A stretch of DNA of 15,249 nucleotides from Weeksellaceae bacterium (GTDB taxonomy: Bacteria > Bacteroidota > Bacteroidia > Flavobacteriales > Weeksellaceae): assembly GCA_022701475.1 (NCBI GenBank), contig JAKOOI010000561.1, positions 1 through 15,249 on the forward strand, written 5' to 3'. The translations under genes were made by a program, and so were the position numbers. Every line of letters starts with the position of its first letter. Position 1 is the stretch's first letter. Below are positions 7,051 to 15,249 of the stretch, piece by piece. The notes beneath the pieces were generated by a model. It was not told the DNA's origin. It saw only the letters and a program-made list of their open reading frames with translations, and searched no databases.

Positions 7051-7081
7051 TTGCGGATTCCGTACAAATCCGTTATATTTG
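7051..7081 (+). promoter_or_regulatory. Promoter of the sigma-factor gene (full -33/-7)
   Basis: TTG (7051-7053), 20 bp, then TATATTTG (7074-7081) is a textbook Bacteroidota promoter. The -7 element ends 6 nt before ATG 7088, so the predicted transcript has at most about 3-4 untranslated nt. It also rules out the in-frame TTG at 7079, which lies inside the element, as a likely start codon. Confidence 0.7.
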
Positions 7082-11337: not shown

Positions 11338-12015
11338 TCAGAGGATCTCGTATTTCGTTTTAATGCTGTATTTCAGCTTGATGTTTTCAATATTGTCAAA
11401 CGAATAATCGACTCCGGTATCTGCTGCTTCCATCTGTACATTGCTTACACGGGCAGATTTGTATAGGGCAGGAAGCACCATGTCACTGGTATAATCTTCT
11501 ATTTCCGTAATTTCCAGCGGTGTGCCGGCTTTTTTACCGATGCTTTCCAGCAGGTAATCCGCTTTCTCTTTTGCCGCCTTCAGTGCATTGATTTTTACCG
11601 TTTTCCTGAAATCCGCAATTTTCGTGTTTTTGATTTCTGCGATATTGATATTGCTTACCCACTTCTGGTTCAGGTTTTCAAACAGGGAAGACAGGTCTGT
11701 TTTCTTATCCGCTTTGAACTGGAAGTTCTTAGTGAAAATTTTGGTCTTCGAATAGAGGTTCTGGTACATTGCCTTGAACTTGATGTCTTCGTTTCTTATG
11801 CCGCTGCTTTTCAGGATGTCAAACAGCTTTTTCTCATTGCCGGCCAGGTCATTCTTATTGTCCCCTTTGATGCCGATACTGAAAATGATTTCATCCGGTT
11901 CCACTTCCATTTCCGCAACGCCTGTTACTTCAATGCTGTTTTTCTTTATTTCCTGTGCGTTGATCAAGCTGGTGAAAGCTAAAAACCCTGCTAATAAAAA
12001 ATGTTTCAGTTTCAT
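11338..12015 (-). CDS. SIMPL-domain (DUF541) exported protein, shorter paralogue
   Basis: The 225-residue protein starts with signal peptide MKLKHFLLAGFLAFTSLINA (cleavage before Q21). The SIMPL/DUF541 domain fills the rest: NSIEVTGVAEMEVEPDEIIFSIGI (26-49), a central coiled section, then KTVKINALKAAKEKADYLLESIGKKAG, the family's late helix. SIMPL proteins are envelope proteins of uncertain role; one (SIMPL/IRAK1BP1) gave the name, and bacterial members such as BP26 and YggE are linked to stress or multimeric channel-like assemblies. I chose ATG 12015 over an in-frame ATG at 12054 because it starts a perfect signal peptide and because the -7-like element lies between them. Two direct repeats lie 61 bp upstream, as for the other SIMPL gene. 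Confidence 0.9.
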   Translation of the reverse strand: MKLKHFLLAGFLAFTSLINAQEIKKNSIEVTGVAEMEVEPDEIIFSIGIKGDNKNDLAGNEKKLFDILKSSGIRNEDIKFKAMYQNLYSKTKIFTKNFQFKADKKTDLSSLFENLNQKWVSNINIAEIKNTKIADFRKTVKINALKAAKEKADYLLESIGKKAGTPLEITEIEDYTSDMVLPALYKSARVSNVQMEAADTGVDYSFDNIENIKLKYSIKTKYEIL

Positions 12016-12040: not shown

Positions 12041-12048
12041 TAAAGGTA
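12041..12048 (-). promoter_or_regulatory. Variant -7 element of the shorter SIMPL gene
   Basis: The minus strand reads TACCTTTA, which is TAnnTTTG with A in the last position, starting 26 bp from the ATG. No -33 TTG is present at the usual spacing; the repeat pair takes that place. The same arrangement is found at 13563-13570. Confidence 0.5.
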
Positions 12049-12075: not shown

Positions 12076-12109
12076 ACTTGGTGAACGGGAGGTCTGACTG
12101 GGTGAACGG
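12076..12109 (-). promoter_or_regulatory. Direct-repeat operator of LytTR type, upstream of the shorter SIMPL gene
   Basis: ACTTGGTGAACGG (12076-12088) and ACTGGGTGAACGG (12097-12109) match at 12 of 13 bases and start exactly 21 bp apart. The nearer edge is 61 bp from ATG 12015 and leaves 27 bp to the variant -7 element. Two imperfect direct repeats two helical turns apart just above the -33 position is the typical site of LytTR-family activators. The binding protein is inferred, not seen. Confidence 0.65.
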
Positions 12110-12128
12110 AATAAAAACCATTCTTTGT

Positions 12129-12479
12129 TTACCGGTGGGTCAGCGTAATGGATTTTCCGGCAGGCGTAATGAGCTTTCTTTTGTCCGGAAACAAGTCTGT
12201 ACTGATGACGATGCCTTCCGGAGTTTCGGAAATCATGTAACGGTTTGAAGCTGAAAATGAACCATGGGCATAATGTTCAAACAGCTTTACGGAATCGCCT
12301 TCATGAACAGAATAAAAGTCAACTTTATAAAGGCCGGCCCGGGCCTGGTGATATTTGTAGACGATGTTCTCATCCGGATTGCCCGAAATGATTTTCGTCT
12401 CACTGAAGTTTTTTTGTTCCAGGAAGGAGCAGCTCTGAAAGGCAATGGCAGCAAGCAGGAGAGATAAAAGTATTTTCAT
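12129..12479 (-). CDS. Small lipoprotein, function unknown
   Basis: The 116-residue protein has a lipoprotein signal ending in FQSC (Cys17). The residue after the Cys is Ser, followed by FLEQKN; an acidic surface-export stretch is not obvious. The mature part of about 100 residues is strand-rich (VYKYHQARAGLYKVDFYSV, GIVISTDLFPDKRKL) with no recognised motif. It sits between the two SIMPL genes, all on the minus strand, but has an exact -7 element of its own (12499-12506) and lacks the direct repeats in front of its neighbours, so it may not share their control. The 113-bp gap to the shorter SIMPL gene contains that gene's operator and promoter. Confidence 0.82.
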   Translation of the reverse strand: MKILLSLLLAAIAFQSCSFLEQKNFSETKIISGNPDENIVYKYHQARAGLYKVDFYSVHEGDSVKLFEHYAHGSFSASNRYMISETPEGIVISTDLFPDKRKLITPAGKSITLTHR

Positions 12480-12498
12480 GATTGGGTGTTGTTTTATA

Positions 12499-12506
12499 CA
12501 AAATTA
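12499..12506 (-). promoter_or_regulatory. -7 element of the small lipoprotein gene
   Basis: The minus strand reads TAATTTTG, an exact TAnnTTTG match, starting 20 bp from ATG 12479 (predicted leader about 16 nt). No -33 TTG was seen at standard spacing. Confidence 0.55.
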
Positions 12507-12592
12507 GGGAATGCTGATGCGTTGGCTGTTAACTGAATTTCAATTAATGTTAAGGTTTTGATCCGAAAAATAAAAAGCTTTTCATAATTATT

Positions 12593-13537
12593 CTAAAACA
12601 ATCTGAACCGCTTCCTGTCTCTTTTTGAGGCATTAATTTCCGCCGCTTTTTCTCTTTCGGGATTTCTTTTAATGCTGAGTTTTATTTCATAAAGTATCTG
12701 GATCACTGGTTCGTGGATCACCGGATTAATCACAAAATCGAATTCCTTATCCAGTACAGGCTGATAATACATGGTTACGGACTTGGCCGCCGGATTTACA
12801 TTGGTAAACCGGGCAAGCGCCAGCGATGAACTGTTGTAGGCTTCATACGATTTATACATTTCCGTGGGCAGAAGCGTCCTGAAGCCATCATTTATACTTT
12901 TTGTTGCATAGGCAAAATCTTCTCCGGAAAAATACGCCAGGCTTTTCATCTTTTCCTCCAGGGATATTTTGGCTTTGGCCATCAGTTCTTTACGGATATT
13001 TTCGAGGTTAGCGGCAAAATAATCTACCCGTACAAGATCATAAATTTCATTCTTTGATAAGATGGCAATAAAATCATTAAGCTGGGAAGGATCCTGGAAT
13101 TCAATATGGATATTTTTCTTCAGCTCAAATCCGGCCGGCACCTCATTGTACGTTTTTTTGCTCGACGTTTTCTTTTCAGCGTTATACTGATAAACCGGAA
13201 CAAAAGAGATCATATCCACATAAGTTTCCGCTTCTTGGTAAGCTTTGATCCGGAGGATGGAATTATTGATCCGGTTTTCCATAAGGCTGTTTACTTCTTC
13301 AGCACTTTCACCGACCTGCGTAACACTGAAAATGGCGACGTATTTTTCAGCTTTTACATTGGCCATTCCTTTTACACTGATGATCCTCTCATTCTGATCA
13401 GGATCGGCAACAGGGGAAGCAATATTGATGGTCGTTTCAGGATATTGGAGCTGGTGCCGGTAGTTGATATTCCCGGAAACCTGTGAATATACGGTTTGCG
13501 ACAGCATTAAAGTTGCGGATAAAGCGATGTTTTTCAT
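12593..13537 (-). CDS. SIMPL-domain (DUF541) exported protein, longer paralogue
   Basis: The 314-residue protein has a signal peptide (MKNIALSATLMLSQTVYSQ). The SIMPL pattern starts at RIISVKGMANVKAEKYVAIF (51-70), includes SAEEVNSLMENRINNSILRI, a strand pair around DMISFVPVYQY, then FELKKNIHIEFQDPSQLNDF and the late helix NIRKELMAKAKISLEEKMKSL. After the domain it has a C-terminal extension of about 80 residues ending in a strongly basic tail (KRDRKRFRLF). It is much more divergent from the shorter paralogue than a recent duplicate would be. The gene is divergent from the sensor kinase and shares its intergenic operator. Its promoter layout is the same as that of the shorter paralogue. Confidence 0.82.
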   Translation of the reverse strand: MKNIALSATLMLSQTVYSQVSGNINYRHQLQYPETTINIASPVADPDQNERIISVKGMANVKAEKYVAIFSVTQVGESAEEVNSLMENRINNSILRIKAYQEAETYVDMISFVPVYQYNAEKKTSSKKTYNEVPAGFELKKNIHIEFQDPSQLNDFIAILSKNEIYDLVRVDYFAANLENIRKELMAKAKISLEEKMKSLAYFSGEDFAYATKSINDGFRTLLPTEMYKSYEAYNSSSLALARFTNVNPAAKSVTMYYQPVLDKEFDFVINPVIHEPVIQILYEIKLSIKRNPEREKAAEINASKRDRKRFRLF

Positions 13538-13562
13538 GAGTATTAAATTTAAAATTCTGCTG

Positions 13563-13570
13563 TAAAATTA
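13563..13570 (-). promoter_or_regulatory. Variant -7 element of the longer SIMPL gene
   Basis: The minus strand reads TAATTTTA, again TAnnTTTG with A in the last position, and again starting exactly 26 bp from the start codon. No -33 TTG is seen. The match with 12041-12048 in sequence type and position argues for common activation. Confidence 0.5.
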
Positions 13571-13597
13571 GGTTCGGGATCCGGAAAAGAACGGCAG

Positions 13598-13629
13598 ACT
13601 TGGTGAGCCTGCGATTTCACTTGGTGAAT
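13598..13629. promoter_or_regulatory. Direct-repeat operator of LytTR type in the divergent kinase/SIMPL promoter
   Basis: ACTTGGTGAGC (13598-13608) and ACTTGGTGAAT (13619-13629) start exactly 21 bp apart, as at 12076-12109. The pair lies 61 bp from the SIMPL start codon (13537). It leaves 27 bp to the minus-strand -7-like element and 26 bp to the plus-strand one at 13656, so it is central between the two promoters and could activate both. This is consistent with autoregulation of the kinase locus. Confidence 0.68.
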
Positions 13630-13655: not shown

Positions 13656-13663
13656 TATCTTTG
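13656..13663 (+). promoter_or_regulatory. -7 element of the sensor kinase gene, 4 nt from the ATG
   Basis: TATCTTTG is an exact TAnnTTTG match followed by TTTT and the ATG at 13668, so the transcript is predicted to be essentially leaderless. No -33 TTG is present at 17-23 bp; the direct repeats end 26 bp upstream. Confidence 0.6.
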
Positions 13664-13667
13664 TTTT

Positions 13668-15249
13668 ATGAAACGGCTTCGATCTTTTTTCGTTTTCTTT
13701 TTAATAATCTTTGGAAATACGGCTTATTCCCAGAGCGGTAATGTTGTACAGGAGGTGAAGGTACAAAGCAAAAAGCTGGAAAAGGCAGTGGATACCAAAG
13801 ACGAATCCGCACAGGCCGATTCCTACTATAACATCGGTGAAACCTTCTTTAAAGACGGAAACTTCCGCAAAAGTGAAGAATATTATACAAAGGCTAAAAC
13901 CATTTATGAAAAATTAAACGACCGGCCCAATATTGAAAAGACAAGCCGCAAACTGGCGCAGTCTCAGGAAAAGCAGAATAAAATTGCACCGGCCATCAGC
14001 AATTACAGCAGGGCAGCGGAAACAGGGGTTTCACAAAGCAAAGCCGTGAATTCCAATGATGCCGCAAGGCTCTCGGCAGCTTCTCCGGAGGTGAAGGCCG
14101 AAGCCATCCAAAGCAATATCCTGATGAGTGCAAAGCAGAACGATCAGGCAGATCTTGCCGTAAGCTACAGCCAGATGGCAGAAGTAAACGTACAGCAGAA
14201 CAACATAGCCGGGGCTGAAAAAAACCTGAACCGGGCGTATACGATCTCCAAGACGGAAGCTCCGCAGCAGGCGTTGGAAATCAACCGGAAACTGACGGAT
14301 TTTTATGTGGAAAACAAGAAACTGGACAAAGCGATTGAAACCCAGAAGGCGGTACTGAAAGAAGGATTCGTAAAGGACAATTCCCGCAAAGAAGCGGAGC
14401 AGCTGCGCGAACTGGCAGATCTTTATCTGAAGAAAAAAAATCCAGCACAAGCCATAGCCGCCTTAAAACAGTCGTATGCCATCGCCCTGCAGAAAGGGCA
14501 TACCCTGGAAGCCCGGGAAAGCGTACATACCCTGGACAGCCTCTATGCCAGCCAGGCAGATCCTGAAACTTCCATACAGCTGTACCGGAGTTTTTTGCAG
14601 AAGCTGCCGGACCTGGTTTCCAGGGACCGGAGCCTGGTGGATACTAAAATCCTGGAAGATACCGAACAGCGCATCAGCCAGCTGGAAAAGGAAAAAGAAC
14701 TGAAGGATGAGCTGATCCGGAAGAAAAATATTTTCAATTATAGCCTGATCGGGGCCTTGGTTTTACTGACCGGGCTGGTGGTCTTTATTCTGCTGATGCT
14801 GAAAAAAGTACAGGTACGGAATAAAAAAATTGCCCTTCAGTCGCTCCGCCGGGAAATGAACCCGCATTTTATTTTCAACAGCCTGAACAGTGTCAACCAC
14901 TTTATCGCGATGAACAACGAACTGGAAGCCAACCAATACCTGACCCGTTTCTCCAGGCTGATGCGCGGGGTGATGGAAAATTCCACCGAAGATTTTATCC
15001 CGTTCCAGCAGGAACTCGATCTTCTCCGGAATTACCTTGCCCTGGAAAAGACCCGTTTCTCCGATAAGTTTGATTATGAGATTGAAATTGATGAAAACCT
15101 GAATACCCAAAACCTGAAAATTCCGGGCATGCTGGTTCAGCCTTTCCTGGAAAATGCCGTCTGGCACGGATTGCGGTACCGGGACTCCATGGGCTTTCTG
15201 AAGCTTACTTTTGGAAAGGAAGCGAAGTACCTGAACATTATCATCGAAG
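13668..15249 (+). CDS. LytS/YehU-type sensor histidine kinase with TPR sensor region (3' end beyond window)
   Basis: An open frame of 527 codons runs off the window end. It has a signal peptide (MKRLRSFFVFFLIIFGNTAYSQ), a helical TPR-like region (about 50-330, e.g. DSYYNIGETFFKDGNFRKSEE), a coiled coil (about 330-352, ISQLEKEKELKDELIRKK), one transmembrane helix (about 358-378), and a His_kinase (LytS/YehU class) domain. The phospho-accepting His is His400 in REMNPHFIFNSLNSVNHFI. The ATPase N-box is ENAVWHGL (Asn496). The window ends just before the expected G1 box. Such kinases phosphorylate LytTR response regulators, often encoded next. The TPR part would lie in the periplasm, where it could sense a protein or envelope state. 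No upstream in-frame start exists, and an exact -7 element is 4 nt before the ATG. Confidence 0.93.
   Translation, partial: MKRLRSFFVFFLIIFGNTAYSQSGNVVQEVKVQSKKLEKAVDTKDESAQADSYYNIGETFFKDGNFRKSEEYYTKAKTIYEKLNDRPNIEKTSRKLAQSQEKQNKIAPAISNYSRAAETGVSQSKAVNSNDAARLSAASPEVKAEAIQSNILMSAKQNDQADLAVSYSQMAEVNVQQNNIAGAEKNLNRAYTISKTEAPQQALEINRKLTDFYVENKKLDKAIETQKAVLKEGFVKDNSRKEAEQLRELADLYLKKKNPAQAIAALKQSYAIALQKGHTLEARESVHTLDSLYASQADPETSIQLYRSFLQKLPDLVSRDRSLVDTKILEDTEQRISQLEKEKELKDELIRKKNIFNYSLIGALVLLTGLVVFILLMLKKVQVRNKKIALQSLRREMNPHFIFNSLNSVNHFIAMNNELEANQYLTRFSRLMRGVMENSTEDFIPFQQELDLLRNYLALEKTRFSDKFDYEIEIDENLNTQNLKIPGMLVQPFLENAVWHGLRYRDSMGFLKLTFGKEAKYLNIIIE

Follow-up and report, generated by a model that had tools for sequence, protein, structure and literature searches.

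Two pairs of short direct repeats lie upstream of two SIMPL genes in the stretch of DNA analysed here, which is 15,249 nucleotides long and is referred to below as the window. The question raised by this locus is whether the repeats are operators and, if so, which regulator reads them and what it does to the genes on either side. An earlier note on the same DNA had proposed a LytTR regulon, and our comparative analysis indicated that this reading is well supported. We consider it highly likely that the repeats are the operators of a two-component circuit, consisting of the TPR kinase at 13668 and an orthologue of the LytTR regulator encoded downstream of it in relatives, which would activate its targets and tune its own operon.

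The window corresponds to contig C391, which ends at 15249, of a 3.09-Mb assembly (G000; 602 contigs, 73% complete). The SIMPL1 gene (11338..12015, minus strand) encodes a 225-aa protein of the PF04402/DUF541 family, with an N-terminus that is signal-peptide-like by eye, and the SIMPL2 gene (12593..13537, minus strand) encodes a 314-aa PF04402 protein. The two SIMPL proteins scored 63.6 and 27.5 bits against the Pfam gathering score of 25.2. A small lipoprotein-like ORF of 116 aa (12129..12479, minus strand) belonged to no Pfam family and had 52-56% identical counterparts in several relatives. The sensor kinase gene (13668..15248, plus strand) was cut by the contig end, and 527 aa of its product were visible. 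By eye, the kinase has a signal-peptide-like start and one TM segment, with the TPR region between them, and Pfam recognized a His_kinase domain (PF06580, E 2e-21) carrying NPHFIFN. LytS-type kinases carry a multi-TM membrane sensor domain. The Pfam search detected no LytS/YehU-type membrane sensor domain at E 0.001 and TPRs were present instead; thus the designation LytS/YehU-type, given in the earlier note, holds for the catalytic domain only. Elsewhere in the window, positions 1307-1364 contain a 20-bp sequence repeated imperfectly in direct orientation (85%, 38-bp period), with CTACAC/GTGTAG in its first copy. The two copies immediately precede a LuxR-type regulator gene at 1375 and are possibly the own operator of that gene. 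A tRNA-Asp gene was located at 63-137, and the 97% identity of positions 1-31 to 108-138 suggests that the contig starts within another tRNA gene.

By direct reading of the sequence and a pattern search, the 9-bp repeat ACTTGGTGA was located at 12076-12084, 13598-13606 and 13619-13627, and ACTGGGTGA, which is ACTTGGTGA with one mismatch, at 12097-12105. Operator 1, ACTTGGTGA-N12-ACTGGGTGA (12076..12105, plus strand), lies upstream of SIMPL1 and recurs at the SIMPL1 gene of relatives, and operator 2, ACTTGGTGA-N12-ACTTGGTGA (13598..13627, plus strand), is common to the divergent SIMPL2 and kinase genes. The start-to-start period was 21 bp in both pairs. On the minus strand, the start codons of SIMPL1 and SIMPL2 begin at 12015 and 13537, each 61 bp from the near edge of its repeat pair. 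On the same strand, the TAnnTTTA element was TACCTTTA (12048-12041) at SIMPL1 and TAATTTTA (13570-13563) at SIMPL2, with its near end 26 bp from the ATG in both cases. All of these values, including the repeat starts at 12076/12097 and 13598/13619, agreed with the earlier note. The 13598 pair, in addition, precedes the kinase ATG by 41 bp, and a consensus -7 box, TATCTTTG, is present on that side, which the earlier note had missed. The predicted -7 boxes of the SIMPL1 (12041..12048, minus strand), SIMPL2 (13563..13570, minus strand) and kinase (13656..13663, plus strand) promoters were 28, 28 and 29 bp from the operator edge, respectively.

Single 9-mers with at most one mismatch occurred five times in the window against a shuffle mean of 2.9, which is not beyond chance. 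The spaced pair with at most two mismatches was found at just the two window places in the 3.09-Mb assembly, and the reversed-pattern control yielded none; at three mismatches, one further match was obtained against four for the reversed control. The spaced repeat pair is real and far beyond chance. It is unlikely that the two SIMPL promoters arose by a recent duplication, because 38 of 93 ungapped positions of the two upstream regions were identical outside the repeats and the SIMPL1 and SIMPL2 proteins were barely alike (28% over 81 aa, E=0.005). This result was consistent with the view of the earlier note that the shared geometry is not mere duplication. The presence of two similar copies close together might also point to a mobile or dispersed intergenic repeat, or to a promoter-duplication remnant, with no regulatory role. 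Against such a repeat stand the two places in the assembly and the distribution in relatives. In 60 genomes of the genus, identified as Chryseobacterium from named relatives, the pattern matched 161 times and its reversed control 11 times; of the 161 matches, 150 were within the window or the fetched module loci. The 11 matches outside equalled the reversed control, so the stray genome hits that the earlier note had named as a possible refutation stayed at background level.

The operator pattern and the kinase were inherited together within the genus. The pattern was present in 58 of the 60 Chryseobacterium genomes, and the kinase was detected in the same 58 (E below 1e-218); the two genomes with neither gave weak matches to other kinases only, the best being 2e-14 and 1e-15. 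A second draw comprised 197 family genomes, 50 of them genus members, and overlapped the first draw of 60. The pattern and the kinase were each found in 43 of these 50 genus members, and the same seven lacked both. Presence or absence of operator and kinase agreed in 60/60 and 50/50 genomes of these overlapping draws, in which the genomes are related, so that the counts are not independent events and relatedness inflates all of them. In the seven module-less genomes, the regulator orthologue was absent: three had no match at E 1e-30, and four had matches of 37-38% identity. SIMPL1 was found in 0/7 of them at E 0.001, with positive controls found in 3/3. For DUF4139, five of the seven gave no match and two gave 28-29% paralogues; the module-bearing genomes G000 and G009 also held only 27-28% paralogues, which makes DUF4139 less telling. 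Loss of the repeats from relatives that keep the genes, which had been named beforehand as another refutation, did not arise, since the seven repeat-less genomes had no kinase, regulator orthologue or SIMPL1. Operators also stayed with relocated genes, as in G053, where SIMPL1 was about 209 kb from the kinase. At L080, L083, L130, L135 and L125/L126, SIMPL1, SIMPL2 or DUF4139 was missing from the locus or had moved, and the remaining or moved genes kept an operator, with the exception of the kinase of G062 (L125). SIMPL1 was not in the gene listings of L080, L130 and L135. Neither SIMPL1 nor the DUF4139 orthologue is a universal component of the module.

The earlier note had placed a LytTR regulator gene next to the kinase, just past the window. 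The kinase regions of 57 relatives and further loci were fetched. In 56 of the 57 loci, the kinase gene is followed in the same direction by an orthologous 244-aa receiver-LytTR gene; in the exception, the contig ends inside the kinase. These orthologues were 86-100% identical to the copy in L072, which scored 57.3 bits for Response_reg and 46.5 bits for LytTR against curated Pfam cut-offs of 30.2 and 22.6. The regulator carries FVRVHRS, which fits the LytTR motif quoted as FhRhHRS in the accessible part of PMC4227749, and its best NCBIfam models, BtsR and LytR, were both far below cut-off. Of these loci, 30 had an approximate kinase-regulator gap of up to 250 bp, 19 one of 250-1500 bp and seven one of 1.8-2.6 kb. 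At some loci a gene lay between kinase and regulator; that at L077:8761-9480 is a PA3715-family protein (NCBIfam NF052451), its counterpart in L131 was 50% identical, and in L067, L070, L071 and others, ORFs comparable in length and location were judged by position and start only. The adjoining regulator was thus borne out in the relatives. In the window's own 73%-complete assembly, where the contig ends inside the kinase gene, the regulator orthologue was not found, and the search returned eight weaker matches, the best at 33%.

We then compiled the sites in the window and 59 fetched loci from 58 genomes, allowing three mismatches. This yielded 150 sites, none of which was at three mismatches, with the consensus [AG]ACTTGGTGAA-N7-TTT[CG]ACTTGGT[GA][AG][AG]. 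The genes on the target side were SIMPL1 (57), DUF4139 (26), SIMPL2 (12), the VWA-like p397 (8), the amidohydrolase p584 (8), p191 (8), a third SIMPL (4), a VWA protein (3) and the small lipoprotein (1). Twenty of the 150 sites served the kinase only, and three had no labelled gene. Labelled targets never occurred on the kinase side, nor labelled kinases on the target side. The regulon containing SIMPL genes that had been proposed therefore kept SIMPL1 and SIMPL2 and proved wider, also taking in DUF4139, VWA-like, amidohydrolase and other genes. By family names alone, a stress or envelope role is suggested for the targets; the DUF4139 protein scored above the cut-off of the NCBIfam model 'mucoidy inhibitor MuiA family', and SIMPL1 was far below that of 'oxidative stress defense protein'. 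In all 58 loci the operator was 39-60 bp upstream of the kinase start, which was extrapolated from the alignment where the alignment stopped short of residue 1. The suggestion that the circuit possibly controls itself was strengthened by this result.

Co-inheritance of a locus does not by itself identify the binder, and a different regulator might bind the repeats, the neighbouring LytTR gene being a passenger. Candidates would be another LytTR protein, such as one of the eight weaker matches in the window's assembly, the LuxR-type gene at 1375 or an ECF sigma factor at 7079. This explanation appears improbable to us, because the operator was absent from the seven module-less genomes even though four of them hold the 37-38% paralogue, because it fronts the kinase gene itself in every one of the 58 loci, and because a direct repeat with a period of about 21 bp is the LytTR signature in the published accounts accessible to us. 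The orthologue beside the kinase remains the preferred candidate binder.

The position of the promoter elements relative to the operator was then compared between site classes. Target-only sites had a TAnnTTTn box towards the target, 28-29 bp from the operator edge, in 88/88, and a box on the other side in 1/88. At kinase-only sites, T[AT]nnTTTG was at 29-30 bp on the kinase side in 20/20, with a box on the other side in 3/20. Shared sites had a target-side box in 28 of 39 and a kinase-side box in 38 of 39; the other 11 lacked a target-side box by the strict pattern. These counts indicated that the boxes go with the side where a gene starts. Across all labelled target sites, the target-side -7 box was at 28-29 bp in 116 of 127, a fixed phase that further argues against a dispersed repeat. 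The earlier note had taken the distance from operator to ATG as the fixed quantity, which did not hold. Among the 150 sites, the first ATG at 50-80 bp was at 60-62 bp in 67 and at 67-69 bp in 33, and 30 had none in this range; what is fixed is the distance from operator to -7 box, which was 28-30 bp in both directions. According to the accessible part of PMC9723704, the flavobacterial sigma-A box occupies positions -12 to -5; by this measure, the operator would span roughly -40 to -70 for the promoters on both sides. The kinase boxes were TATCTTTG in 35 cases and TTACTTTG in 23. In the TATCTTTG promoters, the last base of the box was 5 nt before the A of the ATG, with TTTT between them in 33 of 35 and other four-base strings in the remaining two; a leaderless mRNA is thus predicted, including for the kinase gene of the window. 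For the two SIMPL genes of the window, transcription is predicted to start about 21 nt before the ATG. In Flavobacterium psychrophilum, 5.5% of the mRNAs examined were leaderless according to the same part of PMC9723704.

The direction of control was assessed from the sequence of these promoters. A TTG 16-23 bp upstream of the box was found in 0/88 target-only promoters (shuffled expectation 0.19), in 2/28 target-side promoters at shared sites (0.21) and in 24/58 kinase promoters (0.17). Among the kinase promoters, this -33 TTG was present in 22/35 with TATCTTTG and in 2/23 with TTACTTTG, and the window's own kinase promoter has none. The target-only boxes ended in A, not the consensus G, in 85 of 88. 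The lack of a -33 TTG, together with the off-consensus box, suggests that the target-only promoters are activator-dependent. At shared sites, 20 of 28 target boxes ended in the consensus G, so that the description as weak boxes applies to target-only promoters and not to all targets. The argument for activation is accordingly weaker for shared targets and for one kinase clade.

These promoter features also bear on the alternative that the LytTR regulator binds and represses, or represses one side and activates the other, for example by silencing the SIMPL genes or by negative feedback on the kinase. Precedent exists in the LytTR protein CoxC, which represses from direct repeats overlapping the -35 box according to the accessible part of PMC11347149; the sites face targets and kinase in opposite orientation, which allows different outcomes per side, and many kinase promoters look self-sufficient, as the 22 with TATCTTTG and a -33 TTG illustrate. 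However, the near edge of the operator, 28-30 bp from the -7 box, places it upstream of the core promoter and not over it, and the target-only promoters, all without the TTG, are as expected of activator-dependent ones. Repression on one or both sides is therefore unlikely, though clearly less so than a different binder, and activation of the targets is preferred.

Outside the genus, five of 147 other family genomes had a kinase match at E 1e-60 or better. Operators were found at the kinase in G088, G093 and G124. In G062, a perfect operator was present at a DUF4139 gene on another contig, and its kinase had no recognisable operator. In G137, neither pattern nor matrix detected an operator; this genome carried two copies of a drifted repeat, AATGGGTAA, with the 21-bp period retained, and TAGCTTTG was 29 bp away on one side and TTACTTTA 30 bp away on the other. 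The plain pattern was matched in 35 of the 147 genomes, 31 of which had no kinase; among the matches listed for those kinase-less genomes, all had two mismatches. Of 296 genomes of the order searched at E 1e-75, 11 from outside the family had regulator orthologues, and all 11 belonged to a single genus, Flavobacterium by its protein names. All 11 loci carried operator-like sites, 17 in total above a PWM score of 8, with scores of 21.3-47.5 compared with a shuffled maximum of 1.3 over 680 strands. The target-side box was at 28 bp in 17/17 of these sites, and in 11 of the 17, one per genome, the opposite side, identified by coordinates as that of the kinase, carried a box at 30-31 bp. The operator was conserved between the families while kinase identity fell to 40-44%. 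As far as the comparative data reach, these results refuted a dispersed repeat or duplication remnant without regulatory role, which we regard as having almost no chance of being correct, because the repeat is non-dispersed, phased and conserved.

At E 1e-100, the regulator orthologue was present in 82 of 398 Flavobacterium genomes. In the accessible part of PMC10197871, a coevolution study of Flavobacterium johnsoniae, Table 2 gives mutations in a LytTR gene or a histidine kinase in all five lines, namely in the LytTR gene FJOH_RS09515 in lines 2 and 5 and in the histidine kinase FJOH_RS09520 in lines 1, 3 and 4. The two have neighbouring locus numbers, and the main text of the article uses 'histidine kinase' a single time, in Table 2. 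The coding bases reported there (C at 44, G at 46) did not fit, by eye, the N-termini of the Flavobacterium orthologues, and we do not claim that this pair is the present module.

What can be read directly is the operator, its co-inheritance with the module, the two-sided promoter geometry and the regulator gene in relatives. From these we infer binding by the regulator and activation. In the proposed mechanism, the phosphorylated regulator would bind the pair with the 21-bp period as a head-to-tail dimer, at a distance of about 40-70 bp before the start sites. Once bound, it would switch on the target promoters, which are those of SIMPL1 and SIMPL2 in the window and, in other species, those of DUF4139/4140, VWA-like, amidohydrolase and small secreted proteins. 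From its opposite end, this operator would tune the kinase-regulator operon. The circuit very probably switches on a handful of poorly understood secreted proteins plus its own sensor. At every labelled site in the Chryseobacterium and Flavobacterium loci, targets were at one end and the kinase at the other. A bolder reading, which we offer tentatively and hold to be somewhat less likely true than false, is that the asymmetric operator is readable from both ends, with almost equal spacing to the -7 box, what looks to be the usual LytTR orientation tuning the kinase-regulator operon and the inverted one activating the target promoters, of which most have no -33 element, and that the SIMPL, DUF4139/4140, VWA-like and associated secreted proteins are interchangeable parts of one envelope system sensed by the periplasmic TPR domain.

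In the open-licence PMC literature, we found neither a description of this particular circuit nor a regulatory context for SIMPL/DUF541 and DUF4139/4140 proteins in Bacteroidota. For the SIMPL/DUF541, DUF4139/4140 and VWA-like families, the analysis supplies a common control site at a precise position together with a candidate sensor, and induction or removal of a single regulator could be used to approach their function. In addition, a Bacteroidota LytTR operator pattern is available for scanning, and the shared, target-only and kinase-only sites form a clean natural set in which to ask if an asymmetric LytTR dimer can work both ways.

Compared with known systems, the locus represents a new LytTR two-component regulon and not a new kind of system. 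The accessible parts of the published accounts describe LytTR sites as 9-bp direct repeats, mostly with a 12-bp spacer, most often 10 bp upstream of -35 (4-11 bp in S. mutans) and with autoregulation (PMC6193735), or as two direct repeats of 9-11 bp with an 11-13 bp spacer (PMC4847170). The operator here, with 9-bp repeats and a 12-bp spacer, is within these ranges and lies just upstream of the -35/-33 element position, as LytTR operators do. It resembles the AgrA, SilA, YpdB and HdrRM operators, for which the accessible parts of PMC4227749, PMC2766830, PMC4847170 and PMC6193735 describe a pair of direct repeats, each about 9 bp long and separated by about 12 bp, immediately before the promoter. 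As with HdrRM and others in these sources, an operator is present at the regulator's own operon, and the targets are few and near the regulator gene. The repeat in the kinase direction, TTCACTTGG, shares CACTT with ACCACTTAC of PMC6193735; no common consensus exists according to the accessible part of PMC4847170. Unlike the published operators, the present one has its own repeat consensus, bacteroidotal promoter elements and a TPR kinase sensor, and it is an asymmetric operator between divergent kinase and target promoters, at near-equal distance to both -7 boxes. The targets also differ, being secreted proteins from families of unknown function; by domain membership in Pfam and NCBIfam, the SIMPL and DUF4139 proteins belong to the SIMPL/DUF541 and MuiA-type DUF4139/4140 families. 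An LRS of the HdrRM type consists of a LytTR regulator and a membrane partner without a kinase/receiver pair, and this assignment was rejected because a histidine kinase and a receiver domain are both present by Pfam. In protein architecture, the system is close to YpdA/YpdB and BtsS/BtsR of E. coli, which likewise pair a PF06580 His_kinase with a receiver-LytTR regulator; in contrast to these, the kinase described here has a TPR region in place of a LytS-type membrane sensor domain by Pfam.
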